The notes below the pieces were generated by a model. That model had not been told where the DNA came from, searched no databases, and saw only the letters and a program-made list of their open reading frames with translations. A stretch of 64,000 nucleotides of DNA from Stentor roeselii (Eukaryota > Ciliophora > Heterotrichea > Heterotrichida > Stentoridae), in contig RSEH01000177.1 in NCBI GenBank assembly GCA_006503475.1, positions 1 to 64,000 on the forward strand. The letters are read 5' to 3'. The position numbers were made by a program, and so were the translations under genes. Of this stretch, positions 15,985 through 52,682 are shown one piece after another; position 1 is the stretch's first letter, and each line of letters opens with the position of its first letter.

Positions 15985-16014
15985 TAAGTAGTTTCAGAAT
16001 GGCTTTACTCATAA

Positions 16015-17352
16015 ATGTCGAAAAGCAGGCAGATCCAACAAGAGATTGAGAAAAAACTTCAGCAGGTTGAAGAAGGCTCAGCTAATTTCGGGTCCATTCT
16101 CAAGAAGTTGCAGGGGACTGTCAATGCGCCGCAGAAAGAAAGGCTTGAAAATGAACTGAAAAAAGAGATCAAAAGACTTCAAAAAATCAGAGAGTCGCTC
16201 AAAGCTTTAGAGTCACAAGAGCCGAGACTGAGGCAACGAATGGTCGAAGCCAAGAAAAAAATAGAAGAGTTGATGGAAGTGCATAAACAAAGCGAAAGGG
16301 ACTCAAAAGTAAAGGCTTTCAGCAGAGAAGGACTTTCTAATGCGAGTCGAATGGACCCTCAGGAAGAGTCTCGAAATGAAATGCGTGAAATGATTAAAAA
16401 TCTTCAGGGAAGCATTCAGGATAAGATCAATATGAAGGAAGGAGAGATCGAAAGATACAGAAGCGCTCGAACTAGACCTCCTCAGTTTGAAGAAGCCAAC
16501 CGTTACATGAGAGCAGCCAGTAATCATTTAGACCGTCTTGAGCAGGTTCTTCGACTTGTGGAAAACGATTCAGTCACTCTTGACACCATCTGGTCCATCA
16601 ACGAGAAGTTCGAGTCGTTTTTAAAGGAAGAAGATCTTCAAGAATCCGAGCAAGAACTTGAAAATATCTACAAAAGTCTCAACCTTTCAAGCAAAATACT
16701 TCAAAACTTCCCTTCTCTTAACGATGAAGAACATGACCCTCAAAAACGCGCTCTTTCAAAAAAACAAGAAAATAAACCTTTACAGCCTGTCGCAAAAACT
16801 GAAATTAAACCTGTTGAAAAAGGGTGGAACTCTAAAGAAGCTTATGTGAAAATCGCTGGAAAGCCGGAAAAAGTGTTGGAAGACCTTCCTGAGGAAGACA
16901 TTGAAAACGTAGAGAGTATTTAGGAAAAGACTGACCCGGAAGTCACGAAAAAGATGATGGAACACGCCTTCGCTTTTTCCATTCGGAATGAAGAAAGAGT
17001 CAAAACTTCTGTGCAGTTTCTTTTGTCGCCTTATCAAGTTCACTCCACATTTCCCAAGAAGCCTTTGTTCAACAATGCCTTTTTGAAGAAACTTGATATT
17101 GACACACTCTTTTTCATGTTTTATCATCAGCAAGGCACTTATCAGCAGTATCTTGCTGCAAAGGAACTCAAGTCTAAAGGGTGGCTTTTTCATAAACGCT
17201 TTCAGTCTTGGTTTTTGAGACAGGGAGACCCCAAGTTGTCTGCTGCCGATCGTGAAAAAGGCTCTTTTATGTACTTCGACTATGAGACGACTTGGTCCAT
17301 GAAGAGGAAAAATGATTTTGAATTTGATTATTCATACCTTGAGAATGATTAA
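16015..17352 (+). CDS. CNOT3: CCR4-NOT complex subunit 3 (NOT3/NOT5), one intron
   Basis: Exons 16015-16908 and 16924-17352 give 440 residues. The N-terminal 230 residues match the NOT3 coiled coil: SRQIQQEIEKKLQQVEEG, the KKLQ and LKKEIKRLQKIRE stretches and a helical second half. The C-terminal exon is the NOT box: LDIDTLFFMFYHQQGTYQQY, AAKELKSKGWLFHKRFQSWF and GSFMYFDYETTW are diagnostic. NOT3 scaffolds the deadenylase that removes mRNA poly(A) tails. The linker between the domains is shorter than in animals. The exon boundary removes an in-frame TAG that would otherwise cut off the whole NOT box. Confidence 0.93.
16909..16923 (+). other. 15-base intron
   Basis: GTAGAGAGTATTTAG, phase 0, five codons long and ending in an in-frame TAG. 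If it is retained, translation stops before the NOT box; if spliced, the frame continues with GAA AAG ACT. Confidence 0.85.
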
Positions 17353-17408
17353 TTTGATAATTTTCATTTTTCTCAATTTTTCATTAATTCACTTAATTTC
17401 AATTCAGA

Positions 17409-18698
17409 TCAGTCGAAGTGGTAGCTAACTGCTCGAACTATCTGAGCCATGCCATCCTCAAATCCCTGATACTTAAGCAACGCCTCAATATCACTCCTAC
17501 AAATCATGCACTTTTGAGTCTTCTTCCACACTTCACAAGCACATTCAAAGCAAATGCCAGCATGTCCACATTTCATAAAAATAGCATTATGATCATTCAT
17601 ACAACAAACACTACAAAGCCGAGCAGAATCCAAAGACTGGTCAATACTTTCCGCAATGATCTCAACTTCCTCATAATCCAAATCAGCCTGAACAAAGAAA
17701 TTACTTGAAATCTTCTTCATAACTTTAGGAAACTCATTCAATTCAACTAAAATCGCAGGAAGCATAACTTCAGGCAATCTTGGAATTTCCATTTGATGCT
17801 GACTAGACCTCGAACCAAGTCCAAAAAAATGACGGTGCATCCAGTCCCTGCCTAATCCTTACATCAAAATGCTATTGAACAAAAACGTCAAAACAAAAAG
17901 TCCGATGAAGTAAATCAACAGCGCGAGAAGTGCCGAAGACGTATTCACCCATTCAATGTCCCCATTATCCAAAGCAATCGACAAAAAAAGGTACCCGAAA
18001 CAGATGGCGAGGCCATACAAACAATAAACAAGCCAGAGAGGCCCGATGGACTCGACGCAGTTTCTTTGATTCCTGCATGATAACCGGATTAGCCGAAAGC
18101 CGTTGATGAGCTGTCCAAGGCCGATGAGGACCAGACTGAGGATCACGATCCAAACGGGCCAAAAGATGTAAAACCAGTTCCAAGGGATAAGCTTGAATTG
18201 CTTTAGCCCGACAAATAAAATTGTTAGACTTAGGGAAAGTTTGAACCAGTTTTCTATTCGATAAGAAAATTCTTGGATTTTGTAAACGGGTTTCGCTTTA
18301 AAGATCATGAATATGCAGTGTTGGCAAAATAATGGAATCATGCTGAAGACCAGGTTTGGCTTGGGGAGGTAAGACATTATTGTGAGATACATAAAAAAGA
18401 ATAAGGTAAAAATTTGGATCAATAGCTCTTGCTTTAAAAAACGGTCGTTCCAGTTACTTTCGGATAGGTAGTAGACTGTTCGGGTTAAAATGATCACTTG
18501 AAAGGCTACAAGAAGGGTGAAAGGGACTAAATAAGGCACTGATCCGCTTAGGCTTAGTTTTAAGAGTAAGATAAAAGCTGTGCAAACGAAGAAGTACTCG
18601 TACCAGGTCCTGAGTTGTTTACTGATGATGGTTCGATGTAGCATGTATTCTGAAACTTGCTGTTGATTCATCTCTTGTTGTCTTTCAGCGAAATCCAT
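17409..18698 (-). CDS. Multi-membrane-helix RING finger protein, one intron
   Basis: Exons 18698-17863 and 17847-17409 give 424 residues. The first exon encodes about six to seven hydrophobic helices with a basic loop; the second encodes a C-terminal C3HC4 RING: CSVCCMNDHNAIFMKCGHAG, then CFECAC and CMICRSD. This layout suggests a membrane-bound E3 ubiquitin ligase of the Golgi, ER or plasma membrane. The junction is a 15-base intron (GTAAGGATTAGGCAG) and joins LM to DWMHRHF. The gene at 48800-50074 is a paralogue with the same domain order and the intron at the same codon. The family is not one I can name outside ciliates. Confidence 0.85.
17848..17862 (-). other. 15-base intron
   Basis: GTAAGGATTAGGCAG on the minus strand, between second and third base of a codon. 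Its removal joins the membrane part to the RING part in frame; the same position is used in the paralogue at 49630-49644. Confidence 0.88.
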
Positions 18699-18720
18699 TT
18701 TATTTTTCCTATTTTATTAT

Positions 18721-25605: not shown

Positions 25606-25659
25606 TAATTAAAATTTAAGAGATTGAGGAGGATTTGGGGTATTTTGAGGGTTTATTGA

Positions 25660-26040
25660 AAATGGGATTTGAGGATTTTGGAGGATTATAGGAAAGGGTT
25701 TATTAGAGTTTTAGTTGATTATTTAAGATCATTTTTAAAATTTGATTTTTTCGGAGTGAGGATTATAGGAAAGGCTTTATAAGATTTTTACTTGATTATT
25801 TTCATCATCTTTAAAATTTGATTTTTTGGAGTGAGGATTATTGGAAAGGCTTTATTAGATTTTAACTTGATTATTAAGATCATTAATTAAAATTTGATTT
25901 TTTGGATTTAGGATGATTGGAAAAAGTCTTTATTAGATTTGAACTTGATTATTTATGATCATTATTTAAAATTTGATTTTTTGGAGTGAGGATAATAGGA
26001 AAGTCTTTATTAGATTATTACTTGATTATTAAAGATCACT
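25660..26040. repeat. Tandem repeat, about 76 bp x 4.5 copies
   Basis: A unit of 74-79 bases is repeated about four and a half times. Each unit carries AATTTGATTTTTTGGAGTGA, a GGAAAGG(C/T)TTTATTAGA block and TTGATTATTWAAGATCA. The block starts GGAAAG fall at 25692, 25769, 25843, 25919 and 25998. The last unit reaches the stop codon of the EF-hand gene at 26029. The units have drifted by some 10-15 percent, so it is not very recent. Confidence 0.85.
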
Positions 26041-27663
26041 ATTAAAAATAGTTTCTAAGTCCTCACCTTCTATCAATAATTCAACTCCAATGTTTAAGAA
26101 CCTCAGATATACTGATAGCTTTTCCTCAACTTCTTCCGGGTTCAGCTCAAGAGCTTCAGAAACGATGGGAACGAGTTTGCTGATCTTTTTGACGAAGTCG
26201 GATATTGTTTTAAGATATTCGTAGAGTGAAGAAAAGGGGTCACCCTTTGGTGAGTCGAAAGAAGCCTCTCCTTCAATACTTAGAAACTTTTTAATGGCAT
26301 CTCCTTCTTTGCCTTTGATATCGATTATTTCTGAGTACCCAGCCCAATGTTCAGATTCAATAACAATCATTCCAGGTTCAATCGACTGAAGAAATCCAAC
26401 ATTCTTCCTTTTCCTCATTTCATTCAATGAGCAACTAGAACTAACATTAAAAATCACAAAATCATCAATAGGAGAAACAAATGTTTTTTCAATATTTTTC
26501 AATTTATCAGCAAAAGCACTGACCGATTCATTGTTAAAGTTAAAGCAAAAGCTGAAAAAAATTTCATTCCTCACAAGCTGCACCCTTGTATTCGCGAATT
26601 CCGGCATTTCAGGAAACTGATTATTTAAAAAACTGAATTTCAAGTAATAAAGCATATCTTCCACCAACTTCAATCTCCTAACAGCAGTTGCCTGACTCTT
26701 GCAAGTGAGGACAAAAGTGATCCAAAACTCATGAATATTCAAATTAAGCATTTCTTCTATTTTTCTCAAAAGCTGTTCTCTTTTCGCTGATTTGGTAACA
26801 GAAAGTTTCAATGAAAGTTTAACTTCTTTTAAATTTTTCACTTTAATGCAGATTTTTTTTGAGACTTTCCTTTTGTCTATTCCTCTTTTTTGTAGCGGAT
26901 TAGCCATTTTAGGCAAATAATAGTTGATTCTTTCAGTCATATTCGCCGTCAAGTCCAGTACCGAGGTCTTCTTCTGTCTTCCTCGTTTCCACCAATAGCT
27001 GAATTCATTAAAGTTGATTTTTCCGTCATCATTTCTATCAATTGCTTTAAAAATTCTATTAGTGTCGGCCTGTGTCAAATTTTTATCAAGTTTTTGAAGT
27101 GCTTCATAAATCTCTTCATTGTTAATAAATCCGCTTTGGTCTTTATCCATATCATTAAAAATCTCTCTTAAGAGCTTTTCAAGGTTAGTTTGTTGAATGA
27201 ACAGATGATTCCAAAGCAAAGTCAATGAACCCGAAGGAATGACTACTGCGCGGTCAATACCTGAAACTTTCTGCTCCGTCACGATGAGATGCACCGGGAT
27301 GTTGATGTGTTTTTTTGACAGAACTTTCACGATTTCCAGGTCTTGAGCTGCTGCCACGTAGAAAACAAGCGAATCGATGCAGAGAGGACTTTGGGCTGAG
27401 TAGTTGTAGTACGAAAGCACGTTAAAAGTCATTACAAAGGACTGAGAAATCTCTATCTTGTAATGAGACCTCTGGAAAGTGAGGGAAAACTCTGGCTCTG
27501 TCCCTGTCCAGATCAGGAGATTGCAGTGGGAATAGGGAAATTCTACCTCTAGAGAACGGATCGAACGGGGGGTTGTGAATCTTGATTGCTTTAAATCTGA
27601 GAGCTTGTCGTCTGGCTCTATTATCACTGGGTATCCTCGTTTAGATGTACAGCAGCTGCCCAT
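26029..27663 (-). CDS. N-myristoylated EF-hand protein
   Basis: The product (544 residues) begins MGSCCTSKR, a strong signal for N-myristoylation and palmitoylation. Two canonical EF-hands lie near residues 170-230 (DMDKDQSGFINNEE and AIDRNDDGKINFNEF), each with a full set of calcium ligands. The region before them contains a short domain of strands and helices (residues 50-160) that I cannot name, and the region after holds a long globular domain rich in Phe and Lys. It is probably a membrane-bound calcium sensor. The last codons overlap the tandem repeat at 25660-26040. Confidence 0.75.
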   Translation of the reverse strand: MGSCCTSKRGYPVIIEPDDKLSDLKQSRFTTPRSIRSLEVEFPYSHCNLLIWTGTEPEFSLTFQRSHYKIEISQSFVMTFNVLSYYNYSAQSPLCIDSLVFYVAAAQDLEIVKVLSKKHINIPVHLIVTEQKVSGIDRAVVIPSGSLTLLWNHLFIQQTNLEKLLREIFNDMDKDQSGFINNEEIYEALQKLDKNLTQADTNRIFKAIDRNDDGKINFNEFSYWWKRGRQKKTSVLDLTANMTERINYYLPKMANPLQKRGIDKRKVSKKICIKVKNLKEVKLSLKLSVTKSAKREQLLRKIEEMLNLNIHEFWITFVLTCKSQATAVRRLKLVEDMLYYLKFSFLNNQFPEMPEFANTRVQLVRNEIFFSFCFNFNNESVSAFADKLKNIEKTFVSPIDDFVIFNVSSSCSLNEMRKRKNVGFLQSIEPGMIVIESEHWAGYSEIIDIKGKEGDAIKKFLSIEGEASFDSPKGDPFSSLYEYLKTISDFVKKISKLVPIVSEALELNPEEVEEKLSVYLRFLNIGVELLIEGEDLETIFNSDL

Positions 27664-35848: not shown

Positions 35849-36841
35849 ATGAACATCTTCTTACCTCGACTTAAACAACGAAGCACTTCAAGGACTAAAC
35901 TCGTTTTAACTCCTCATAAAATCTTTCAAATGCAACCGATTCATAACAAAAGTGCTGATCTTCACAAGTCCTCTCAAATCACACTGAAAGGAAAACTGGT
36001 CTCTAAAAACAACTCATTCGAAAAACGACCTTCTTACTTTTCTCGGTCTCCAAAAGCTGCCCGTTTGAAAGTTTTCCGGAAAATCGATCCACTTTTCGTG
36101 ACTTTTGACAAGACCCAGATAAAAGAAAGTTTCAATCCAAAAGTACTTAAATCCAAGTATCAGCTTTATTCTGAGGTGATAAAAGGACTGCTCTCAATGT
36201 CACCAGGTTCTAAAGAAGTTTCAGGGACTTGCCTTCTGGACTTGTTTTTAGACCTCGGGTATAGTTCAGATAGTAAAACTCTTGAATTAGTCTTAAGAGC
36301 TGCCTGCTCGAATCCCTTTCTTTGCTCATTCAGCAAGTCAGACCTTAAAAGTTTTCTCTTCGAAGACAAACAAGAAAGTTCTTTTCTCACAATTTTAAAA
36401 GAGCTAAAAGACTTAAAAGACCTGAAAAAACCACCTGGTCAAAATTTCGACTCTTATATAAAACTGTTGAAAAGGTGGTGGGCTCAGATCTGCTCAGCAA
36501 AAAACGGCTTTGCACCATCTGAAGCAGTTTGTAACTTTCTGGTAAAAATCAGTGTATTTTCCTCTTCATCTGAAGTGAAAAAGGCTTTTGAGAAAATTTC
36601 TCAATATATGAATTTTAGTCAGTTCCTTGGAATCTTTTCCAGAGGTCTGTTCAAATTTTTACTTCTAAGTCTTTGTGAAGACTTCATCGGGCAGAAGGTG
36701 GTTCCAGCTGATATCGAGTTGAATGCTTTAAGAAGAGAAAGAATGCTGAATACTCTAAGCAGCCTCAACAGTCTTACCCCAAAAAGTTCCATCAACGAGT
36801 CAACCGTCATCGACCGACTCAACCCAAAAGGAAAAAGATGA
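35849..36841 (+). CDS. Gene X: unknown protein; 3' part duplicated at 40430-40638
   Basis: The product (330 residues) starts at ATG 35849 (MNIFLPRLKQRSTSRTK); the frame is open upstream only from a TTG. The N-terminus is basic and Ser-rich. The middle has helical segments separated by acidic loops (LFLDLGYSSDSKTLELVLRA), reminiscent of degenerate EF-hand or ARM helices, and a WW-containing helix (KLLKRWWAQICSAKN). The C-terminal CEDFIGQKVVPADIELNALR is the part preserved in the decayed copy. The function is unknown. Confidence 0.6.
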   Translation: MNIFLPRLKQRSTSRTKLVLTPHKIFQMQPIHNKSADLHKSSQITLKGKLVSKNNSFEKRPSYFSRSPKAARLKVFRKIDPLFVTFDKTQIKESFNPKVLKSKYQLYSEVIKGLLSMSPGSKEVSGTCLLDLFLDLGYSSDSKTLELVLRAACSNPFLCSFSKSDLKSFLFEDKQESSFLTILKELKDLKDLKKPPGQNFDSYIKLLKRWWAQICSAKNGFAPSEAVCNFLVKISVFSSSSEVKKAFEKISQYMNFSQFLGIFSRGLFKFLLLSLCEDFIGQKVVPADIELNALRRERMLNTLSSLNSLTPKSSINESTVIDRLNPKGKR

Positions 36842-36871
36842 CTTTAATAAATTTGCAAATTTTAATAAATA

Positions 36872-37648
36872 ATGAGATACTCCCCTGATCAAGCAGCAAG
36901 AATCATTCAAAGAGCCGTCAGAAATCGCAGGTCAAGAAAAACTCCTGCAGTTCTTGATGAGATGAGAAGAGCTGAGTTGCAGATCATCAAGGAAAAACAT
37001 CGAGAACGTCTTGAAGCTAAAGAAAGAGAATATCTTTTTTTAAGTAAACTTCCTGCCGATGCTGTTTTAAAACTTTACCTTCGAAAACAACATCAAGCCG
37101 CTATCGTCATTCAAGCTTTTTGGCGCGGCAGAGCCGCGCGGAGGAAGATTAAAAACATTCGGAAAGTAGAACCACCCGCGAAAGTTGAAAAAATTAGGAC
37201 TTATAAGTTGCCTCCTGACTCTTTTTACTCAAAAATCAGTGAAGAACGACATGCGGAACTTGTTAAAAGGGTCAGACTTAAAGGAAATGGAGATTTAGAA
37301 GAATATAAAGAAAAGTATTCAAAGTTCTTGTCGAAACAAGTCGCATGGGAAAAACTTAGACAACAACGTCGAGGGGATCGGTTGGAAATACAGAGGATTA
37401 TTAAGGCACTCATTGAAAGCAAGAGTCTTAATAAAAATTTGAATTATTTTGTTGAGAATCCTACTGGTGAAGAACTTTTGAAAGCAAGGAAGATACATAA
37501 GAGTAAAATTGTTGACCCGAAGAAATGGTGGATGAATCTTGATTGGGATGATGATATTGAAGCTGTTGGGTCTAATATTTTGGAACAGATTCAAGAGTAT
37601 AAACTTAATTTGTATAGGGAAAGACGACTGGAATTTGCTAAGTTTTAG
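36872..37648 (+). CDS. IQ-motif protein
   Basis: The product (258 residues) has two IQ-type motifs: AARIIQRAVRNRRSRKT at residues 8-24 and AAIVIQAFWRGRAARRKIK near 76. Between and after them lie long basic/acidic helices. IQ motifs bind calmodulin; proteins of this form occur in cilia and basal bodies (for example IQCB1 and IQ-domain ciliary subunits), so a calmodulin-linked cytoskeletal role is likely. DNA for WRGRAAR contains a G+C-rich hairpin, present also in the decayed copy at 40665-41481. Confidence 0.75.
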   Translation: MRYSPDQAARIIQRAVRNRRSRKTPAVLDEMRRAELQIIKEKHRERLEAKEREYLFLSKLPADAVLKLYLRKQHQAAIVIQAFWRGRAARRKIKNIRKVEPPAKVEKIRTYKLPPDSFYSKISEERHAELVKRVRLKGNGDLEEYKEKYSKFLSKQVAWEKLRQQRRGDRLEIQRIIKALIESKSLNKNLNYFVENPTGEELLKARKIHKSKIVDPKKWWMNLDWDDDIEAVGSNILEQIQEYKLNLYRERRLEFAKF

Positions 37649-37670
37649 GAGTTTTTATGGTTTATATTTA

Positions 37671-38893
37671 ATGGATGATGGTTTCGAAGGGTGTTGGATG
37701 TGGTTTGATGATGAGTTCAAGGATTAGAATTTTAAGTACTTTTAGAAAGGTCACCAAAGCCTTCACTGAACTTAAACTTGAAGAAAAGAGTTCACAGAAC
37801 GAAATCAGAAAAACATTCATGAGCCACTTATGCCGATTATAAGAGGAAATATTAAAGAAGTCAAAAACTAATCAACCAGTAGATGACTCCGTTGAAAGCT
37901 ACTCCAGCAATCTAAAAATCTGATTTGAAAACTTTACATCATATTCAATCACTCCATGAATAGTTTATTCACTCAAGATCGAGCTTGCAGGGAGACATCA
38001 GTGAAAATTTGTAATTTGATAAGAAAAATATCACTTCAGGCCTTTATTAAGTCAACTCTTGATAAAGACCTGGCATAGGAGGAGAGAGATAAAATGTTTT
38101 GACAGAAATGATGATAATGATATTGACGAAATATTAAAAATTAATTTCTTTTAATATTCATCATCACTAGCTTTAGTTTCGACAAGGAAGAAACATCCTA
38201 GATAATATTTTAAATAATTTTCATAAATTAGAATCAGAAAAACGACTATTTTTTTTTTGAATTCAAAAACAACTGAAGTAACTCTTAGAATTGTAATAAA
38301 TTAGTCAAGCTCTCTAAGTTAGCTTCTTTTAAAGCCAGACAGTCTAAATAAGGTCATAATTTGAGATCATGGGTCAGTTTGTCTTAATGAAGAGACATAG
38401 AATATGTCTAAATGAACTATTTATCTTCTGCGTATTAAATATTTAACCAAACATCATTGGCATCAACTCGATTTTCAATCAATTAAAAGGAAGTAACACC
38501 TTTAACTAATGAAGGCCTATCAAAATTGCTTAAGTCAACAGCAAACACGACTTGACAGAATTTCTGAAGTAGTGATGAATTCAATTTCAAGAGTTTTTCT
38601 TCTTATTTGAAAGAACTTCTTGACTTTAATATCAGAGGCTATCGTGCTCAACTTGAAACTAGAGGAAAGTCCTTATAAAGCCTTAAAATCCTCAATTTCT
38701 TAGTCTTCAAATTATCTGGTGTCAATGAAGAGTCTTTAAATACCTAAATAAAACAGTGAAGTACGCTTTTCAGTTGGAAACAAGAAAGTTAGTCTTAAAA
38801 AAGTATTATTCGTATTTAAATCCAATATTCTCTAACATTAGAGCTACCAAAGGCATCATATCGAAAATACTGATAAAAATTATTTTGAAGTAA
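37671..38893 (+). pseudogene. Decayed copy of the 503-aa gene (copy A)
   Basis: Homologous to 41504-43015. The start context TTTATATTTAATGGAT is shared. Then 37745-37830 reads like 41580-41665 (GGTCACCAAAG..TTCAC..A..TTAAACTTGAAG.A.AAGAGTTCAC), and 38640-38670 matches the CAACTTGAAACTAGAG block of the intact gene at 42753. Many small deletions, frameshifts and stops are visible, and the total length is about 290 bases shorter than the intact gene. Both ends of the fossil are fixed by the intact IQ gene before it and the prenyl synthase after it. Confidence 0.9.
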
Positions 38894-38923
38894 GAAAAAA
38901 AACGCATATATCGATAAATTATA

Positions 38924-39979
38924 ATGTTAGTGTTTCGATGGTCATCTACAAAGTTTTTGGATAATTACCTGCAGCTACTGAAAACAACTGGATTCGAAAT
39001 GATTCTTCCAAAAGAAGTTAATCACTCTAATATGGGTTTTTCCAGTGATTTCGACACTGCAGCAATAACCAAAAGTTTTGCAATCCCCACCTACGATATG
39101 CTTGAAAGAGGTGGAAAAGCTTGGAGGGCCAGCTCATCCATAATGATATCTGATATGCTCGGCCTTCCTCGAGACGAAATGCTTCCTCTTGCCCAATGTG
39201 TTGATTTCATTCATAATGCGACGCTAATCCATGATGACCTAGAAGATAAAAGTCTGAAAAGAAGAGGCAAGCCTTGCACTTATTTATTATTTGGGGTGGA
39301 TAGGACAGTTAACACTGGAAGTGCCTGTTATTTTGCAGCTTTGAGTTACTTTTATAAGACAAGTTTCAGTAAAGAAGTCAAAGATGAACTTATCAAGGCG
39401 ACGATTGACGAGATGATGATGATACATTTGGGACAAGCAACTGATATTGAATGGAACAACAGCGACTATATCCCCACTCAAGAGCAGTATATTAGAATGA
39501 TCTGCAACAAGACCGGAGTCCTTTCTCGACTTGGAGTAAGGTATCCTCTCATTGTTGCTCAGTCCGATTCTCACATCAGCTCTGCTGTAATTGAACATGC
39601 AAACAACGTTGGCATAAGTTTTCAAATTATCGACGATTTGATCAATCTCAGATCTGAAGAATATGCCAAAGGACGCAGCTATGTCGGAGAGGATATCACT
39701 GAAGGCAAAAAAACCTTGATGGTCATTCGTGCCATTCAACAAAGACCTGAAAAAGCGGAAAGACTTAAAGAGATCTTGAGTATGAAGACTAATAACATTG
39801 AATTAGTCAACGAGGCTCTTGATATCATCAAGTCAACTGACGCTTTTCAGTATTGTGAAGACTTTGGATTTGACATCATTCAGAAAAGCTGGAAAAAAGT
39901 CGATGAAATCTTTCCTGAGTCTCAGGCAAAGCAAGATTTACATGATTTAACTTTTATGCTTAGTAGCAGGAAGGCGTAA
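38924..39979 (+). CDS. Polyprenyl synthase, GGPPS-like (copy A)
   Basis: The product (351 residues) has both aspartate-rich motifs of trans-prenyltransferases: IHDDLED at 102-108 (first DDxxD) and FQIIDDLINL at 233-242, whose last acidic position is Asn. RGGKAWR (IPP binding) and GQATDIEW are also present. DD-L-I-NL resembles the DDYANL motif of eukaryotic geranylgeranyl diphosphate synthases, so a C20 product is likely, though C15 or longer cannot be excluded. About 48 of 351 residues differ from copy B at 43041 by my hand count, roughly 86 percent identical. Both look functional. The acetoacetyl-CoA thiolase upstream feeds the same pathway. Confidence 0.9.
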   Translation: MLVFRWSSTKFLDNYLQLLKTTGFEMILPKEVNHSNMGFSSDFDTAAITKSFAIPTYDMLERGGKAWRASSSIMISDMLGLPRDEMLPLAQCVDFIHNATLIHDDLEDKSLKRRGKPCTYLLFGVDRTVNTGSACYFAALSYFYKTSFSKEVKDELIKATIDEMMMIHLGQATDIEWNNSDYIPTQEQYIRMICNKTGVLSRLGVRYPLIVAQSDSHISSAVIEHANNVGISFQIIDDLINLRSEEYAKGRSYVGEDITEGKKTLMVIRAIQQRPEKAERLKEILSMKTNNIELVNEALDIIKSTDAFQYCEDFGFDIIQKSWKKVDEIFPESQAKQDLHDLTFMLSSRKA

Positions 39980-40429
39980 ATAAAGAGTTTAGGGTGATAA
40001 GGAGTTTATTGGAGTATTGGCACAAATAAAGAGGTGATTTTATTGAAGGTAAAATTCAAAAGTTTATTTGATCAGAAACAGCTATTTCTAAATCTAGCCA
40101 AAAGTCTGAAGGCATGATTGTAGCCTCAAGTCTGAATTAACCTGGAAAATTTTCAAATGTGACCATCACCCTCAGGACCACCAAAAATATATAAAATTGA
40201 AAATCTTTCAAGTGAAACCACCTTGATAGGAAAATAGAATGGATCGAGTTCTAAAAGGATCTAAAAAGTTCAAAATTACTAATAATGAATTTTAATTAGA
40301 ATACTTAGAATTGTCTTTCTGTCGTTATTTGTATCGTAATCATAATATAATAAATAAAACGAATCATTTTTTTTTTTCAAATGGAATTTCACTCAATTAT
40401 ATTTTTCTGAGATATCAGAGTTTAACTCC

Positions 40430-40638
40430 AAAACTTTATCAAATAATTCTTTCATTTCTCATTCTTTGTGAAGACTTCATTGCGCAGAAGGTGATTTCTG
40501 CTAATATCGAACTAAATAAGTTAAAACTAGAAAGAATACTGAATTCGCTAAGCAGTCTCAATAGTCTTCTTAATCCAAAAGCTCAATCAGTATGTCAAAC
40601 GTTTTCAACCAATAAACGAAAAGCGAAGAGATGAAATT
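40430..40638 (+). pseudogene. Truncated copy of gene X (copy B)
   Basis: From 40465 the sequence matches the 3' end of gene X: CTTTGTGAAGACTTCATT.G.CAGAAGGTG.TTC is shared with 36674 onward, and the translation CEDFIAQKVISANIELNKLK matches CEDFIGQKVVPADIELNALR. The region before 40430 shows at most a weak match, so the duplication probably started inside gene X and this copy never had a complete 5' end. Confidence 0.85.
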
Positions 40639-40664
40639 AATAAACTTGCGAATTTATCAATAAT

Positions 40665-41481
40665 CAGAAATCCTTAGAAAAAATTGAAAGAATCAAAGAG
40701 CTGTCAAAACTGTGCATAAAGAAAAACTGCTACCGTTCTTGATGAGATGAGTAGAACTAAGTTGCAGATTATTAGGGAAAAGTATCGAGAACGGTTATAA
40801 GCGAAAGAAAGAGAATATCTTTTCTTAAGTAAATTTCTTGTTGATGCTGTCTTGAAACTTTACTTTCGAAAACAACATCAGAATTTTATTGATACTCAAG
40901 TCTTCTGGCGCGGCAAAGCCGCGCGGAAAAAGAAGAAAAATTTAGATGCTCGAGAAGGTTGCAACAATCAAGACCTTTAAGTTGCCCCCTGACTAGTTTT
41001 ACTTAAAAATCATGAGAAGGATACGCTAAACTCGTCAAAAGGTCAAACTAAAGGAACTGGTGATGTGGAAGTAAAAGAAAGCATTCAAAGTTTCTCTTGA
41101 AAAAATTTATTTGGGAAAAACTACGACAACAATATTGAAGGGACCATCTGAGATTTAGAGAATTATCTAGAAAATAACCGAAAGAATATTTATTAAAATA
41201 CGAACTGTTTTGTTGAGGACTCCACTGCTGAAGAACTTGAAAGATGCATTAGAGTGAATTTTTTGACACGAAAATGGTGAATAAATCTTGAATGGGGCGA
41301 TAGCATTAAAGCTTTTGGGTGTGATATAATTAAAAGATTCAAAGAATAAACTCTAATTTTTTAAGAAAGAAAAACACTCGAAGGATAAAAGGAATAATTT
41401 TACAACTATCAATGTGTCTGCTGAATTGATTCATAGATGACTTTTCCTTCTTACATACACCTGTAATTCGCTAAGTTTTAG
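40665..41481 (+). pseudogene. Decayed copy of the IQ gene (copy B)
   Basis: Homologous to 36872-37648: GTTCTTGATGAGATGAG.AGA, the TCGAGAACG block, AGAGAATATCTTTT.TTAAG, and the hairpin-bearing TGGCGCGGC.AAGCCGCGCGG are shared. Frameshifts, stops and an insert of about 80 bases near 41385-41465 break it; the last codons TTCGCTAAGTTTTAG are intact and are followed directly by the functional 503-aa gene. Confidence 0.9.
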
Positions 41482-41503
41482 GAATATTAATAGTCTATAT
41501 TTA

Positions 41504-43015
41504 ATGGATAAACTTTTTCAAGATATAGGCTTTTGTTCTGATATGAAGTTTCAGGCTTACGGGGCGAATTATTACTTTTGGAAAGTCACCAAAGAGTTCA
41601 CAGAGTTTAAACTTGAAGACAAGAGTTCACTAAACGAAATCATAAAAACATTCATCAACCACTTCAAACAATTGAAAAGAGGAAACGACAAAGAAGTGAA
41701 AAAATTAATCAGCCAATTCATGATAAGCATTAAAAGTTACTTCCGCAACCTAAAAATCGGATTTGAAGACTTTACAAATCATGTTCAATCACTTCATGAC
41801 GAGTTTTATTCACAAAAGATCGAATTAGTAAGAACAACATCAGTGAACATTTTAGAATCCGCTAAGAAAAAATTCCATTTCACGCCTTTACTAAGTCGTT
41901 TCTTGATAAAAGACGTGACATTAGAAGAACGAACAGATATATTTTTGACAGAAGCGATGATGATGGAAGTAATTAACCCTGAAAAAATCTCTACTTTATT
42001 TTTTGATAAATTTTCTTCATTCATCACTGGCTTCAGTCTCGACAAGGAAGAAATCATTTTAGAAATAATAAAGACCAACATGAAGAAATTTGAAGCAGAA
42101 GAAACAACAATTTTATACGGAATTGAAAGGCAACTGAAGCAAACCCTTATAAATTCAATTAACTCTTTAAAGCCCTGCAAATCAACTCTTTTAATAAAAC
42201 AACTGCCAGGTGTTAACAATCAGATCACAATGTGGGAAGTCTTGAGCGAGTTTGTATTAAATGATGAGGACCTGGAACTCAAACAAGTTCTTTCATTAGG
42301 TGGAAATGAAGTCCTTGCAACGATAGCCTTGAAAGAAACTAACCAAATCATCTGCGTGTTTTCGAAAGAACTGATTACTTTGATGAGTTCCACTACTATT
42401 GACGATTTCAGCACAGTCTTCGCTGATGGGTCCACTCGCGATAACCTGGTTTACTTCAGCAACTCAATCAGAAAAGCATTCATTGGTTATGAGCATGAAA
42501 ATCAGGTGATAGTCCGAAAAGAAATCAACTTTTTCAACCCTAGCATACCTGATATCAAGTCAGTTGTTTTAATCAACTCAAAGGAAGTCGCGTTTTTAAC
42601 TCGTGAGAACCAGTTTCGACTTGCTTTAATTGAAAGTAAAGCCGAGTCGACTGATGCTTCTGAAGTTATAATGAAGCCTTATTCAGACATCTTAATTTCC
42701 ACATGTAAGAACTTCTTGATCTTAACTTCATATTCAGAAGTTTTCGTTTTCAACTTGAAACTAGAGCCAGTGTTGATCGAGACCTCAAGTCCTCGATTTG
42801 TCCTTTTTTCAAAAGACTTACTGACTTGTGTTTTCAATGAAGAGTCTGGAGATACCTACGTAAAACAAGTGAAGTACCCATTTCAACTAGAAACTAAAGA
42901 ACAGTCATCAAGTAGTGCTTCTAGAATTTCAGTTCAATATTCCCGGACCTTGCAACTTGGCCGAGGCATTCTGAATGATTTGCTTACCGAGAAAAAGTTT
43001 TCAATGAAGAACTAA
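41504..43015 (+). CDS. 503-residue unknown protein (intact in copy B)
   Basis: The product starts at ATG 41504 (MDKLFQDIGFCSDMKF). The first half is helical, with heptad-type segments (VKKLISQFMISIKSYFRNLK, LERTDIF). The second half is beta-rich with a repeating pattern of short strands (EVLATIALKETNQIICVFS, SKEVAFLTRENQFRLALI), consistent with a beta-propeller or similar. No catalytic motif is seen and I recognise no family. Survival of only this copy while the twin at 37671-38893 decays shows that the gene is under constraint. Confidence 0.7.
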   Translation: MDKLFQDIGFCSDMKFQAYGANYYFWKVTKEFTEFKLEDKSSLNEIIKTFINHFKQLKRGNDKEVKKLISQFMISIKSYFRNLKIGFEDFTNHVQSLHDEFYSQKIELVRTTSVNILESAKKKFHFTPLLSRFLIKDVTLEERTDIFLTEAMMMEVINPEKISTLFFDKFSSFITGFSLDKEEIILEIIKTNMKKFEAEETTILYGIERQLKQTLINSINSLKPCKSTLLIKQLPGVNNQITMWEVLSEFVLNDEDLELKQVLSLGGNEVLATIALKETNQIICVFSKELITLMSSTTIDDFSTVFADGSTRDNLVYFSNSIRKAFIGYEHENQVIVRKEINFFNPSIPDIKSVVLINSKEVAFLTRENQFRLALIESKAESTDASEVIMKPYSDILISTCKNFLILTSYSEVFVFNLKLEPVLIETSSPRFVLFSKDLLTCVFNEESGDTYVKQVKYPFQLETKEQSSSSASRISVQYSRTLQLGRGILNDLLTEKKFSMKN

Positions 43016-43040
43016 AACGGATATATTAGAATAGATTATA

Positions 43041-44096
43041 ATGTTTTTGTCTCGAAGGTCATCTATGAAGTTTTTGGATAATTATCTCCAGCTATTGAAA
43101 AACACTGGCTTCGAGATGATCCTTCCTAAAGAAGTTACTCATTCGAATATGGGATTTTCCAGTGATTTTGATACTGCTGCCATTACCAAGTGCTATGCAG
43201 TACCCACTCATGATATGCTAGAAAGAGGAGGAAAAGCTTGGAGGGCCAGCTTATCCATGATGATCTCTGATATACTCGGCCTTCCTCGAGAGCAAATGCT
43301 TCCTCTTGGCCAATGTGTTGATTTCATCCACAATGCAGTGCTGATCCATGATGACCTTGAAGATAAAAGCTTAAAAAGAAGAGGGAAGTCTTGCACTTAT
43401 TTACTTTACGGTGTTGACAGAGCAGTTAACTCTGGAAGTGCTTGTTATTTCTCAGCTTTGAGCTATTTATACAAGACAAGTTTTAGTAAAGAAGTCAAAG
43501 ATGAACTCATCAAGGCAACTATTGATGAAATATTTTTGATGCATTTAGGACAAGCAACTGATATTGAATGGAACAACAACGACTATATCCCCACCCCAGA
43601 CCAGTATTTTAGAATGATTTGTAATAAAACTTCAGTCCTTTCTCGACTTGGAGTCAGGTATCCTCTCATTGTTGCTCAGTCTGATTCTCGTATCAGCTCT
43701 GCAGTAATTGAACATGCAGACAACATTGGCATCAGCTTTCAAATCACTGACGATTTAATCAATCTCACATCTGAAGAATACGCTAAAGGACGTAGTTATG
43801 TCGGAGAAGATATCACTGAAGGTAAAAAAACTTTGATGGTCATTCGCGCCATGCAGCAAAGACCTGAAAAAGCAGCAAGACTCAAGGAAATCTTGAGTAT
43901 GAGGACTAATAACATTCAACTAGTCAACGAGGCTCTTGACATCATCAAGTCAACTGACGCTTTAAAGTATTGTGAAGACTTTGGAAATGAAGTCATTCAG
44001 AAAAGCTGGAAAAAAGTCGATGAAATCTTTCCTGAGTCTCAGGCAAAACGAGATTTACATGATTTAACTTTTATGCTAAGTAGCAGAAAGGCGTAA
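43041..44096 (+). CDS. Polyprenyl synthase, GGPPS-like (copy B)
   Basis: The product (351 residues, the same length as copy A) retains IHDDLED, FQITDDLINL, RGGKAWR and GQATDIEW, so both copies should be active. Differences cluster at the N-terminus (MFLSRRSSMKF versus MLVFRWSSTKF) and at residues 164-167 (IFLM versus MMMI), which lie near the chain-length pocket in trans-prenyltransferases; a shift in product length is possible. Its start lies 25 bases after the stop of the 503-aa gene. Confidence 0.9.
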   Translation: MFLSRRSSMKFLDNYLQLLKNTGFEMILPKEVTHSNMGFSSDFDTAAITKCYAVPTHDMLERGGKAWRASLSMMISDILGLPREQMLPLGQCVDFIHNAVLIHDDLEDKSLKRRGKSCTYLLYGVDRAVNSGSACYFSALSYLYKTSFSKEVKDELIKATIDEIFLMHLGQATDIEWNNNDYIPTPDQYFRMICNKTSVLSRLGVRYPLIVAQSDSRISSAVIEHADNIGISFQITDDLINLTSEEYAKGRSYVGEDITEGKKTLMVIRAMQQRPEKAARLKEILSMRTNNIQLVNEALDIIKSTDALKYCEDFGNEVIQKSWKKVDEIFPESQAKRDLHDLTFMLSSRKA

Positions 44097-44173
44097 TTAA
44101 GAGTTTAGGGTGATAAGGGATTTATTGGAGGATTAGAGGATTGAAGTGTTTAGATTTTTTTAGGTTAGAAAAA

Positions 44174-44533
44174 TTATGATGTTGAAGAATAGGAAATTCC
44201 TTCTTCGATATCCAAGCAGAAGGCTTCAGGGTCTGCTTCGGTATTTTCTTCGAAAGAAATCGCAGCATTAGTTTCAAAATCTGCCAGATCAGAAAGTGTT
44301 TGCGATTGCAAAGCACGACTGAGAGACAGCATCGTCTCAGAGACACTATCGGAACCATCAGTACTGGTCCAGCCTGGAAAATCTTTGAAACAAAGATCAG
44401 CTTCTGTAGGGGTATTAAAAGGGATGGCATTTTCAGATGATTGAAAAAAGTCCCAAAACTCATGTTTTATTGTCTTTGATTCGAAAAGTCTTTCAATAGT
44501 CTCAGCTGTTGTTATCTGTATGGTACTCGTCAT
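44174..44533 (-). CDS. Small acidic protein
   Basis: The product (119 residues) is acidic and rich in Ser, Thr and Glu, with an aromatic patch (HEFWDFFQSSEN, FPGWTSTDG) and no domain known to me. Start context is A-rich. It faces the F-box gene at 44619 head-to-head. The G+C content is higher than in the gaps, so I take it as a real gene, but only with fair confidence. Confidence 0.5.
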   Translation of the reverse strand: MTSTIQITTAETIERLFESKTIKHEFWDFFQSSENAIPFNTPTEADLCFKDFPGWTSTDGSDSVSETMLSLSRALQSQTLSDLADFETNAAISFEENTEADPEAFCLDIEEGISYSSTS

Positions 44534-44618
44534 TTATTATGATCAAAATATTACCAACTATTAAATCAATATCTCAAAAGCTTTCTTGTTCCATTCCTTC
44601 CTCTAAAATTTTACAATA

Positions 44619-47035: not shown

Positions 47036-47091
47036 GTTTTTTATTTAGTTTTAATTGTATTTAATGAAGGGTGATTTGGTTTTAGATAATT

Positions 47092-48549
47092 ATGGGCTGT
47101 GGGAATTCAACAGCGATGAATAGCACTGGAAAAAAATTGAAAATTTTACCTGAAATTATTGTTGACCCGAATAATTTTATTGCTACGAACTCTAAACCTT
47201 TTCAAGATGTTTATAAAATCGGAAGGCTTCTTGGAAGTGGAAGTTTTGGGGATGTTAGGATTGTCACTCATAAAGAGACTGGAGATCATCGGGCTGTTAA
47301 GATATTCAAAAAGGACTTGGCTAATACTGATGGAATGAAAAAAATGCTGGTTGATGAGTTGAATATTTTGAGGACTCTTGACCATCCAAGTATAATCCGA
47401 ATCTTCGAGTTTTTCGAAGACGATAAAAAGTACTACATTGTGATGGAGCACTGCGAAGGTGGCGAGCTATTCGAAGAAATTCTAAAAAAAGAGTACTTCG
47501 ACGAAAACGTGGCAGCGTCAATTCTTCATCAGTTATTCTCAGCAGTAGCTTACCTCCACAGCAAAAGAATCGTGCACCGTGACCTGAAACCTGAGAACAT
47601 TCTTCTCGAGGACAAAAACGACCTTCTCAACCTAAAACTAGTCGACTTCGGTCACGCGACACGTTTAAACCCAGGTTCTCGGATACGAGTTCCAGTGGGC
47701 AGTTCTTATTACATTGCCCCAGAGGTCCTAAAAGGTTCTTACACAGAAAAGTGCGACTTATGGAGCTGCGGGGTCATCACTTACATGCTCTTATCCGGAA
47801 AGCCGCCTTTTGACGGCAAGTCCGACGATGAAATCATAGAAAAAGTAAAAAAATGTTCTTATCATTTCAAAGATGAGGTTTGGAAAAGTGTCTCTAATGA
47901 AGCAAAAGATCTTATTTTTAAGTTACTTGCTCTTCCTGATGTCAGGATTTCTGCTCAAGAAGCATTAGAAGACCCTTGGCTCCAGAGAAGGGTAAAAAAG
48001 GAAAACTTGTCGAAAAAAATTGTCACTCATGCCTTGGATAACTTGAAAGGCTTCAGCAAGAATAATAAGTTGAAGGAAGCTGTTAATAGTTTTATTGCTA
48101 CTCAGTGTTTGACTGTCGCTGAAAATAAAGAGTTGAGAAATGTTTTCAAGGAAATGGATGGTAATGGAGATGGAAAACTTAGTCGCAAGGAACTTATTGA
48201 TTATTTTATTAGGGAAATGGGAGAAGATGAAGCACAGAATGAGGTTAATCGCATTTTTGCTCAGGTTGATACTGATAATAATGGATATGTGGAGTATACT
48301 GAGTTTTTGAAAGCTAGCTTGGATGGAAAAACTAGAAACAATAAAGGGTATCTTAAAAGAGCTTTTGATATGTTTGATAAGAATGGGAGTGGAACCATCA
48401 CAATTGAAGAACTTAGAAAAATCCTTGCTGGAGGAAGTGTCAGTAGTGATGGAATCTGGGCTCAAATAATTCAAGACGTAGATAAAAACGGGGACGGAGT
48501 AATCGACTTGCAAGAATTTGAGAGCCTCCTAATGAGCAAGATTAGCTAG
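47092..48549 (+). CDS. Calcium-dependent protein kinase (CDPK)
   Basis: The product (485 residues) begins MGCGNST, a myristoylation/palmitoylation signal. The kinase domain has LGSGSFGDV at 48-56, Lys70, HRDLKPEN at 162-169 and DFG at 185-187. A junction helix precedes four EF-hands (EMDGNGDGKL, QVDTDNNGYV, MFDKNGSGTI, DVDKNGDGVI), all with full calcium ligands. In CDPKs, Ca2+ binding pulls the junction helix out of the kinase. Such kinases control motility and secretion in alveolates. It is divergent from NEK at 45845, 56 bases apart. Confidence 0.96.
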   Translation: MGCGNSTAMNSTGKKLKILPEIIVDPNNFIATNSKPFQDVYKIGRLLGSGSFGDVRIVTHKETGDHRAVKIFKKDLANTDGMKKMLVDELNILRTLDHPSIIRIFEFFEDDKKYYIVMEHCEGGELFEEILKKEYFDENVAASILHQLFSAVAYLHSKRIVHRDLKPENILLEDKNDLLNLKLVDFGHATRLNPGSRIRVPVGSSYYIAPEVLKGSYTEKCDLWSCGVITYMLLSGKPPFDGKSDDEIIEKVKKCSYHFKDEVWKSVSNEAKDLIFKLLALPDVRISAQEALEDPWLQRRVKKENLSKKIVTHALDNLKGFSKNNKLKEAVNSFIATQCLTVAENKELRNVFKEMDGNGDGKLSRKELIDYFIREMGEDEAQNEVNRIFAQVDTDNNGYVEYTEFLKASLDGKTRNNKGYLKRAFDMFDKNGSGTITIEELRKILAGGSVSSDGIWAQIIQDVDKNGDGVIDLQEFESLLMSKIS

Positions 48550-48799
48550 GATCTCACCCATACATTAAAAATCACTAAATTATATCAAAAAATCTGCTCT
48601 TGATATCAAATTCTTAGCCAATCAAAATCTCTCTTTTCAAGAAAAAATCCTCACTTCAAAAAACCCTCATTCCTAAAAAAAACCAATTCTAAATCCTAAA
48701 ATTCTTAAAAAAAACTAATTTCAAAATCTCCAGTTTTCACATCTTTAACCATAGAACATTCTAATATAATCTATTCACACAAATCTTTTATAAATAAAT

Positions 48800-50074
48800 A
48801 TGATCATCAGTAATAATCCAGCACAAAGATTAGGATACGAACTGCAACGAAACAAAGAGGCAGTTCTCAGCCAGGTCTTGATCTGGTGTGAGCACTTCTT
48901 GCATTTGGCAGTGTTTTTCCTCTTTACTATTCTATGGTTAAGCGGTTTGGTTCCTCAGCCAGTGCCCTTCGCGGCGGCATCTCTTGTCCAATTGCTTCGA
49001 ATAGTGAAGCAAATGACGACACTAGCAAAGACCCAGGCCCTCGGAAGCAAAAAATTTTTCATCAAAGAGCTTCTGCTAAGTTTTTTTTCATTCCTGTTCA
49101 TTTTCTATTTGATGTTCATAAGTTACGTGCCAGAAGCTCAGCTGGTCATAAGCCTCTGCCCTCTGCTGGCAAATATGATGGTTTTTCTATTGTTTAAAGT
49201 GAAAAATTATCATAGAATCAACTATTTTTCTTCTAAACTAGAGATTTGTATACAACTTGTCGCTTTTATGGCGGTTTTGTTCGCAGGGCTTAAGGATATT
49301 CAAGTCATTCAGATGGACTGGATTTTTGTTTTTTGGTCTGTTTGGATTGAAATTTTGGTTTTTTTGGTCTTTGGAGCTCTGCAGCTTGCTAAGGGCTTTA
49401 AGAAGATATTTTATAGGAGAAATAGAGAAGATTTTAATGAAGCTGTTGGAAGGATTTGGATCGGCGCTGCTTTGATTTGCGCAGGGTTTTGTGGATTTTA
49501 CTTGTTTTTTTGTCTTTCTAGGGAATTGGATATGGATAAGTGGAATGGGGTTAAGGTTGCTATTTTGGTGTTTTTGTTGTATTTTGTTGTTCTTGCTATT
49601 TTCACATGGATTCTCAGAAATCTTTTGACGTAATTTATAAAAAGGGACTGGCTAGTCTGCCACTTCAGCACTCCAAGCTTTCAATTTTTCACCGAATCAA
49701 GAAACTCCTTACTCAACCTCGATCAACTCCAAATCACTCTAATCGACGTTGAAAATTTCCCATCAAGACTAAAGCATTTCTCCTCCAATTTCTTCCTAGT
49801 TCAAAGTGAAGACCCAGAAGAACTCCAAAATTTTTCCCACGATTCAAGCCTTGAAATTTCTAAACTCTGTTTAATTTGCTGTATAAACCCTCCAAACTCC
49901 ATCTTCATGAACTGTGGTCACGGAGGAGCCTGTTTCGAGTGTTCTTGTCAGACCTGGGCAAAGAACCAAAAGTGTTTTTACTGCAGAAGTCCAGTTCAAA
50001 TTCTTTTAAAATACGAAAGCGAGTCAGAAGGGGTAGTCGAAGTGACTCGAGCAGTGAAAGTAAAGTTAAATTAA
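48800..50074 (+). CDS. Multi-membrane-helix RING finger protein, one intron (paralogue of 17409-18698)
   Basis: Exons 48800-49629 and 49645-50074 give 419 residues. Several hydrophobic helices (first exon) are followed by a C-terminal RING: CLICCINPPNSIFMNCGHGG, then CFECSC and CFYCRSP. The 15-base intron GTAATTTATAAAAAG joins LLT to DWLVCHF at the same codon and phase as in the paralogue. Domain order, length and the intron show common descent; sequence identity outside the RING and helix loops is low. It is probably a membrane E3 ligase. Confidence 0.87.
49630..49644 (+). other. 15-base intron
   Basis: GTAATTTATAAAAAG. It removes an in-frame TAA and connects the membrane region with the RING. 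Confidence 0.88.
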
Positions 50075-50085
50075 TAACATTTTAA

Positions 50086-51927
50086 ATGGACTTCAAAGGA
50101 ATTCTTGACAAAGACATTCCTGAAGCCCTTCAAGTGAACTCGAAGTTCGCCCGTTCATTCGAGGCGAAAAAGCGTCGAGAAGAGATTCAAAAGGCGAAGG
50201 AGCGTGCACAAGAACTTCATCTTTACTCAGGCTCTGAAGTCTCATCATCGGAAAGTGAGGACTCTTCAGCGGAGCTGCTGACTTCGAAGGCCAACTCCAA
50301 GTTTTTAAAGCTCATGACAATGATAAAGACGAGTGACCCGGCACTGAAAGACCCGGACTACAAAGCTTTCAGTGACTCTGACTTTGAGACTTCTTCAGAG
50401 AAGTCCTTAAAACAAGGAAAAGAAGGGAAACAAGTGAAGCCTGTCAGGTACAAAGACCAACTCAGGCAAAGTCTTTTAAACCCGACGACTGACAAGCCAA
50501 ACACTGAAGTCCAGAAGCAAAGAGAGCTGAAAGATGACTTTTTGTCTGCAGTCAGTCAGTGGGAAAACCTTGATAAAGACCAGGACCTGCTCAAGCCTCG
50601 CAAGCAGGACTCAAAAAAGGACTCAGAAGATGATTTAATTGAAGCTGTGCAGGAAATCACTAAGGACAAGAAAGAACTAAAAAAGTTAAAAGAATTCTGG
50701 GGAACAAGTGAAAGTCATGATGACCAGTTCTTGAAAAACTTCGTTTTGAAGAAGATGTGGCAGGAACCTGATGAAAAGTTACTTACTTATGATGAGATTG
50801 TAGAAGAGGAAGATGAGAAAAAGACAAATGAAGCTGAAAAATTCGAAACTGCTTACAACTTCCGATTTGAAGAAGAAGGTTTCGATAAACTAAAATGTAA
50901 CCTTTAAACAGCCTACCCTCGAAACATCGACCAATCAGTACGAAAAAAGTCAGAAACCCGAAAAACTCAGCGAGAACTAAAAAAAGAACGAAAAGAACAA
51001 GAAAAACTTTCAAGAGCCGAAGAAATAAAACGTTTAAAAAACCTAAAAAAAGCTGAAATCGCTTCAAAACTTTCCCTAATCGAAAAATTCGCCGGTACTA
51101 AACCCTTAATGCAGGCAGAAACATTTGAAAAAGACTTCGACCCAGCAGAGTACGACAAAGAAATGTCTCAGATGTTCAACGATTCTTACTATCAAGTCGA
51201 AGACCGTCCTATGGTAGACCCAGACGACATTGAAAAGGTTCAAGAAAACGACGTCGACGTTCTAAGAATCGAGCAAACCGCTGAAATCCCTGCAAGTCTC
51301 AAGGAAGGCACCCAGGGCACCTGGTGGTTATGCGACGGCTGCGAAGAAGGCATTCCTGAAAATCGCTGGCGCTTTGACTGCCTTGAATGCCCGAATTTCA
51401 CATTGTGCGAGGCTTGCCGGGCGAAGGTCGTTCATGAGCATCGATTAAAGCGCTTGAAAGTACCTCTTGGCTGTGCACCGCCTTCGAATGTTGTTAAAGT
51501 TTTGTGTGATGACTGTGGAAAAGACATTTCTCGTGAAATGCAGTTTGACTGCACACAATGTGATGACTTTAGTGTTTGTGAACAATGTCTTGAAAGCACT
51601 TCTCATCCACATCAGCTGAAAAGTGTTCAGGACTTGTGGAAAGAACTTGAAGCTCTTGATTATGAAGATATGGTCGCTGGGGTACCTTGTAGATTCAAGT
51701 ATCGGCAGGTTAGACCTCGGGACTATGGACTCACCACTGATGAGATCTTTGAGTGGGAGGATAAAAAGTTGAATAAACTTGTCAGTCTTAAGAAAATCGC
51801 TCCTTATCGAGAAGATGACGAAGTCAAAGTCACCAAGAAGAAAAAGAAATTCGTCGAAAAATCAAAAGAAAAAAAGAAAAAAGATAAAAAAATTACTAGA
51901 GAAGAAAGTTATAAAACAGGTAATTAG
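50086..51927 (+). CDS. KRI1: KRI1 ribosome-biogenesis factor with two inserted ZZ-type zinc fingers, one intron
   Basis: Exons 50086-50896 and 50912-51927 give 608 residues. The N-terminal half is acidic and lysine-rich as in KRI1, with YNFRFEEEGFDKLK and, after the 15-base intron (GTAACCTTTAAACAG), SYPRNIDQSVRKKSETRKTQ and the EKDFDPAEYDKEM block. The C-terminal KRI1 domain is at about 512-570 (LDYEDMVAGVPCRFKYRQVR and GLTTDEIFEWEDKKLNKLVS). Between them, at 408-500, are two fingers of ZZ type: LCDGCEEG...CLECPNFTLCEACR and LCDDCGKD...CTQCDDFSVCEQCL, each with a closing H-x-H pair. KRI1 works with KRR1 in 40S subunit assembly in the nucleolus. The zinc fingers are not part of the family as I know it. 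Confidence 0.88.
50897..50911 (+). other. 15-base intron
   Basis: GTAACCTTTAAACAG. It splits a codon after its first base and removes an in-frame TAA in the middle of the conserved KRI1 region. Confidence 0.88.
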
Positions 51928-52682
51928 AATTCGATTGAATATTTAATACTCCATTGTTTATATAGTTCCTCATGGATAATTCTTAATTTTTCTGATCTTT
52001 TATAACCCATTTCAGGGTATTTCCAACGTTTTAAGTAGGTGTCGTTGGTGAAGTACTTGTTTATTTCCAATACTAACTGGTCAAAATTGCTTTGATCTCC
52101 TTGTCTCACCTCAGTCAATGCAATAGTAGTGCAGGTCTTAGTCCCCGTGAGTTTACCCAATCGGTCTTTATTTTTTATGATGCAGTAAGGAACTGACATC
52201 GCTTCACAGAGAGATGGAAGCCAGACTACAAGTTCAATTGGATCCACGTCCCAAGCGATCACTACCAGCTTTGCAAGACCTTTTTCAACGAGTGAAGTCA
52301 CGTGTTTCAGTCCAAATTTCAAAACAACTGGCTTTGGAGATGATGAAGGGACCTTTTTTGAAATGATAGCTTCGGATAAAGCTTTTAAACGCGCGCATTT
52401 TGATGAACGAGTCTCGGGTTTGTATTTTCTTAGTAGTCGGAATAATGAATAGGTCGTGTTTATACCCAGAGGACTGTAGAACGGGTTCAGTGCTGGAGGA
52501 ATTTTCAAACTTTTTAGTAAAAGTTTACGTTTTCGCTGGATTTGGATGTATTCTGCCCATCGCACGTAAAATCGTAGGTTCCGACGAGGCTGGATTGAAC
52601 CGATTCTAGAAAGTTTTACTCGGGTTGTGAATAAAGGGTTTTCATTTGGTGGAGGTGAGGCTGGCGGGATTTTTTTTACCAT
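51924..52682 (-). CDS. Divergent paralogue of ribosomal protein eL8 (L7a)
   Basis: The product (252 residues) keeps the RPL7A framework: NPLFTTRVKLSRIGSIQPRR, YVRWAEYIQIQRKRKLLLKS, LAKLVVIAWDVDPIELVVWL and SVPYCIIKNKDRLGKLTGTK. It differs strongly from the canonical copy at 15238-15984 in the linker (residues 65-120) and in the C-terminal tail, and its base composition and codon use are ordinary, not those of a highly expressed gene. It is probably an alternative eL8 used under particular conditions or in a different particle. Its stop (TTAG overlap, 51924-51927) overlaps that of KRI1 on the other strand by four bases. Confidence 0.88.
   Translation of the reverse strand: MVKKIPPASPPPNENPLFTTRVKLSRIGSIQPRRNLRFYVRWAEYIQIQRKRKLLLKSLKIPPALNPFYSPLGINTTYSLFRLLRKYKPETRSSKCARLKALSEAIISKKVPSSSPKPVVLKFGLKHVTSLVEKGLAKLVVIAWDVDPIELVVWLPSLCEAMSVPYCIIKNKDRLGKLTGTKTCTTIALTEVRQGDQSNFDQLVLEINKYFTNDTYLKRWKYPEMGYKRSEKLRIIHEELYKQWSIKYSIEF

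Follow-up and report, generated by a model that had tools for sequence, protein, structure and literature searches.

A probable tandem duplication with piecemeal gene decay and a retained pair of predicted geranylgeranyl diphosphate synthases in Stentor roeselii

In a 64,000-nucleotide stretch of contig RSEH01000177.1 of Stentor roeselii (the window), two neighboring blocks carry related genes, and a predicted geranylgeranyl diphosphate synthase (GGPPS) is open in both. The locus raises the question of why such a pair was worth keeping. We argue that the region at 36657-44134 very probably arose by a single tandem duplication followed by piecemeal pseudogenization, with the GGPPS pair kept. 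Features of the two blocks are on the plus strand unless the minus strand is named.

Extent of the duplicated unit

Comparison of the blocks by blastn returned three matches, each with E <1e-80: positions 36657-37611 of copy A align with 40450-41359 of copy B (72.9% identity), 37628-38290 with 41461-42152 (72.4%) and 38608-40018, the synthase region, with 42704-44134 (82.2%). Blocks A (36657-40018) and B (40450-44134) are adjacent, in direct orientation and share the same gene order without rearrangement; identity is 72-73% across the IQ gene and part of the 503-aa gene and 82% around the synthase. Copy A consists of gene X, an open IQ gene, a dead 503-aa gene, an open GGPPS and a decayed fifth gene, and copy B of the tail of gene X, a dead IQ gene and open copies of the 503-aa gene, GGPPS and gene 5. 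The region's genes are open under the standard code. The original prediction of co-linear tandem copies is borne out by these alignments, which extend past the prenyl synthases over the IQ and 503-aa regions; the order of its four-gene block stands, but its limits were probably too small, with the fifth gene overlooked.

This fifth, putative coding gene is an open 119-aa ORF on the minus strand in copy B (44174..44533), with no Pfam match. Its presumed decayed copy, also on the minus strand (40063..40360), lies in what had been taken for a spacer; it aligns to 44245-44548, which covers most of the ORF and its start, and it has the co-linear place and expected orientation. The local alignment score of 42 was reached in 0 of 1000 shuffles (maximum 31.5), the position outscored every other non-self one in 508 window-and-strand tests, and blastn with loose settings gives the core of the match an E of 8e-10; in a control, unrelated windows scored up to 35.5 versus 40.5 for the matching window. 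The remnant is weaker than the rest of the block and is recognized by score and position together, and a degraded second copy of gene 5 is the most likely identity of 40063-40360, so that the duplicated unit would be larger than four genes. The gene and its remnant show 5 stops and codon differences that are flat by position (29, 29 and 29 of 83 codons), which leaves the coding status of gene 5 unproved. The same loose blastn also matched the spacer weakly to 35 bases within gene X (E 0.005). The spacer DNA returned only its self match in the genome, in a search of low sensitivity that likewise left the gene 5 match unreported, and a protein search of the genome reported neither another match to the gene 5 protein nor the decayed copy. 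An unrelated or mobile insert was considered for the spacer and rejected, since its local alignment falls on gene 5. Should the gene 5 match hold, the old junction between copies A and B would lie in the unstranded interval at about 40361..40449, and the unit would have run from inside gene X to just past the start of gene 5.

Gene X is an open frame of 330 aa (35849..36841) without a Pfam match. The protein searches of the 44.4-Mb, 522-contig assembly, in which the best candidates only were scored, gave it 6 other, distant matches on other contigs (22-38% identity). As predicted, it is whole in copy A only and copy B starts inside it: the 3' fragment (40450..40635), found by blastn and protein matching, is cut by the junction, and its protein match is limited to gene X residues 269-313 of 330 (40452-40583), a piece of 45 residues that is open throughout.

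Several observations concern the wider window and genome. Contig C228 carries a relative of gene X (L024, 7338-8456) and one of the 503-aa gene (L025, 4079-5650) 5.6 kb apart, a closeness with a chance probability of ~0.005 by rough arithmetic from the 6 X-like and 3 503-like loci elsewhere, and the two are perhaps an ancient shared block. At E 1e-3, no IQ, synthase or gene 5 match occurred in the 19.8 kb of C228 that the search covered, and an ancient paired block there was rejected as a match of the whole unit. The similarity of a kinase on C228 to the window kinase (34%) was also rejected as support, being absent among the 88 other scored rows of 1416 candidates. The window kinase ORF itself (47086-48546) has at least 88 other matching stretches in the genome, 88 of 1416 candidates having been scored, and is assigned to a very large family. 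Three ORF pairs at 15238-18713 and 48794-52682 (32-48% protein identity) mirror each other in order, the pattern that an older inverted segmental duplication would leave; 25653-26049 contains short tandem repeats with copies ~77 bases apart and 83-86% alike. A tRNA scan of the window at a bacterial code setting found none.

Open and decayed copies

The IQ gene is open in copy A (36872..37648, 258 aa), where it has one IQ motif just over the Pfam cut-off and a DUF4441 match under its cut-off; among the best candidates scored in the genome, it has no match outside this locus. Its copy in B (approximately 40664..41382) is disrupted by 11 internal frameshifting indels (689 aligned bases) and 11 stops (222 aligned codons). 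The reverse holds for the 503-aa gene, which is open in copy B (41504..43015), has no Pfam family over the cut-off, and has 3 other matches at 20-26% identity among the best candidates scored; a single-sequence fold prediction of the protein gave a mean pLDDT of 36.6, too low to be of use. In its copy in A (approximately 37671..38893), the two alignable parts together carry 21 internal frameshifting indels and, over 328 aligned codons, 17 stops, a poorly aligning middle being left out of the counts; the coordinates indicate a net loss of ~230 bases between these parts. For both genes the state of each copy agrees with the original prediction.

A study of Stentor coeruleus describes the standard code together with introns of 15 or 16 nt (PMC9505925). 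In our window, long frames are joined across GT..AG gaps of 12-30 nt, most commonly of 15 nt (7 cases) and then of 20 nt (5 cases). Introns of 15 or 16 nt bounded by GT..AG were tried as a rescue of the dead copies and rejected, as none restores the frame. With such introns permitted, the longest ATG frame is 55 codons in the A copy of the 503-aa gene (15 shuffles: mean 49, maximum 106) and 17 codons in the B copy of the IQ gene (shuffles: mean 43, maximum 88), compared to 503 and 258 codons for the open copies. Having no usable frame even with tiny introns, both dead copies are classed as putative pseudogenes.

Copy B has thus lost the IQ gene, and copy A the 503-aa gene and, most likely, gene 5; gene X in B was cut at birth, with most of the gene missing. 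The original prediction saw in this pattern a resolution by complementary loss, which the analysis does not support as anything special, because gene X was truncated from birth and three coin tosses give some split across both blocks with a probability of 3/4. Double loss of a needed gene would be selected against, and which copy is lost first is a coin toss; random loss readily gives the observed split, and no special cause is needed.

The retained synthase pair

The two synthases are open frames of 351 aa each, at 38924..39979 in copy A and 43041..44096 in copy B, and are identical at 303 of 351 residues (86.3%). Both match Pfam PF00348 (E 1.8e-58 and 4.4e-58) and contain the motifs DDLED, DDLIN, GKxxR and RRG, in agreement with the prediction of two intact copies, ~86% identical, that keep their motifs. 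The genome holds 3 other matches at 26-39% identity among the best candidates scored. In phmmer (best 60 of 174 matched sequences), the closest PDB relative of copy B is yeast YPL069C (2dh4, E 1.2e-36), followed by other GGPP synthases, and the pair is accordingly annotated as a putative geranylgeranyl diphosphate synthase nearest to the yeast type III enzyme.

One source describes type III enzymes as having no aromatic residue at -4 or -5 relative to the first aspartate motif and a Tyr, Phe and His at the floor of the cavity, and reports that Tyr107, Phe108 and His139 of the yeast enzyme stop chain growth (PMC9729869). These three correspond to Tyr136, Phe137 and His168 through the phmmer alignment, given a shift of five residues that we infer for native yeast numbering relative to the PDB chain, and all three are identical in copies A and B; the -5 and -4 positions are the non-aromatic A99 with T100 (copy A) or V100 (copy B). 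The same source words the first type III motif as DDXXXXD, and the yeast enzyme is type III by a title cited within it (PMC9729869); the first motif is DDLED, and so DDXXD, in both copies and DDIED in the yeast chain, neither of which fits that wording. Since the three chain-stopping residues are the same in A and B, both copies are predicted to make GGPP. This sharing argues against different chain lengths and leaves dosage, timing or location as possible reasons for keeping the pair.

All rates given here are pairwise between A and B and, with no outgroup block, do not separate live from dead lineages. For the synthase pair, dS is 0.55 (bootstrap 0.41-0.74), dN 0.067 and dN/dS 0.12 (0.08-0.18), with 33 of 107 four-fold sites differing; an alternative site counting gives a dS of 0.51 and a ratio of 0.13. 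As a ratio of about 0.5 or higher would be expected had one member drifted freely, selection appears to have maintained both synthases through most of the time since the event. Of the original suggestion that the pair was kept for dosage or for different products, selection on both copies stands, but different products are made less likely by the identical Tyr-Phe-His set and motifs. A run of 29 silent-capable codons at 43941-44045 (codons 301-335 of synthase B) is identical in both copies (permutation p 0.0065); codons 1-280 alone give a dS of 0.64. Gene conversion is a possible source of the run and would make the synthases look younger.

The synthases may alternatively have been kept because they diverged in role, whether in expression, cell compartment or product, a reading that we hold to be possible but doubtful. 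Differences occupy 5 of the first 10 residues versus 43 of the remaining 341 (Fisher p 0.006), compatible with an altered targeting end, although protein ends are often free to vary. Residues 164-167 form a run of four replacements beside His168, but 461 of 5000 shuffles yield a run at least as long; T100V is located four residues ahead of the first aspartate motif. Relative to the yeast chain, copy B has 9 changes and copy A 5, and relative to a second compared GGPP synthase chain, which we take to be the human enzyme, 7 and 6, which is not clearly lopsided. Against a changed product stand Tyr136, Phe137, His168, DDLED and DDLIN, all identical in both copies (for the floor role, PMC9729869). 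The narrower proposal that the pair split its work between compartments or life stages, with changed N-termini and a changed patch by the product cavity while the other genes became single again, is rather unlikely. We consider it likelier that both copies were kept for additional GGPP supply, or for a division of expression or location, than for a change of product.

Divergence rates, the number of events and known systems

For the IQ pair, dS is 0.73 (0.51-1.06) and dN/dS 0.35 (0.22-0.50), and for the 503 pair 0.64 (0.49-0.83) and 0.58 (0.41-0.80). Four other gap settings give a dS of 0.52-0.63 for the IQ pair and 0.44-0.60 for the 503 pair, with dN/dS at 0.37-0.42 versus 0.52-0.61. The gene X pair has a dN/dS of 1.15 (0.49-2.88) and a dS of 0.29 (0.11-0.57), on 54 codons only. 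The calculation proposed in the original prediction hence ranks the pairs as would be expected for live/live, live/dead and dead-on-arrival copies: the 503 ratio is in keeping with a copy that died early after the event, the IQ ratio with one that survived a while, and the gene X ratio with a piece without use from the outset. The 503 ratio exceeds the IQ ratio in 83 to 98% of bootstraps, depending on gap setting, which is suggestive of the loss of the 503-aa gene in A before that of the IQ gene in B, and only suggestive, since the live genes may differ in constraint. Dating the event by its dead copies, as had been envisaged, gives a relative date only.

The synthase, IQ and 503 pairs have overlapping dS intervals, indicating similar neutral divergence, with gene X lower on its 54 codons. 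This overlap supports one tandem duplication, and a single event for the whole unit is inferred; the low dS of the gene X fragment and its open 45-residue piece count against it. It is very unlikely that the synthase was instead duplicated or converted at another time than the rest: the stretch without silent differences at codons 301-335 (p 0.0065) and the higher identity around the synthase would fit such a history, though selection explains much of the latter, while the order kept without rearrangement and the overlapping dS values oppose it. An assembly artefact, in which divergent alleles or germline and somatic versions were joined in tandem, is extremely improbable, as a dS near 0.5 with many frameshifts looks far greater than the usual allelic difference and as a single contig carries both copies, the decayed fifth gene preceding the junction.

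In the favored single-duplication account, one event would span the IQ gene, the 503-aa gene and GGPPS, with one end inside gene X and the other shortly past the start of the minus-strand gene 5. Mutation would then erode the redundant copies (in A the 503-aa gene and gene 5, in B the IQ gene), at times that may differ; the gene X fragment in B would have been useless at birth, and both GGPPS copies would stay under purifying selection. The locus would preserve a single event cleanly and with built-in clocks, in which live/live, live/dead and dead-on-arrival pairs adjoin, and rates of pseudogene decay and of indels in such genomes could be calibrated on it. The literature titles listed, a weak guide to novelty, included none evidently on this locus or on a tandem GGPPS pair in ciliates.

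Tandem (segmental) duplication with nonfunctionalization of redundant copies is a textbook fate of gene duplicates. The locus is an ordinary, well-preserved and clean case that leaves the general view of duplication unchanged: it shares with the textbook picture co-linear copies, one live copy per gene, pseudogenes in place and one pair under selection, and is the same in kind, though unusually readable, as compact genes leave decayed copies in order. With type III GGPPS from yeast (YPL069C) and, presumably, human, the pair, whose first motif is DDLED, has in common PF00348, DDLIN as second motif and the floor Tyr-Phe-His; it has ~30% identity to these two chains and differs in forming a tandem pair. 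Reciprocal loss, or divergent resolution, treated for example in PMC5896889 and PMC9157103, has in common with the locus that different genes survive in different copies, but it compares two lineages, whereas the copies described here are known from one genome and one tandem array.
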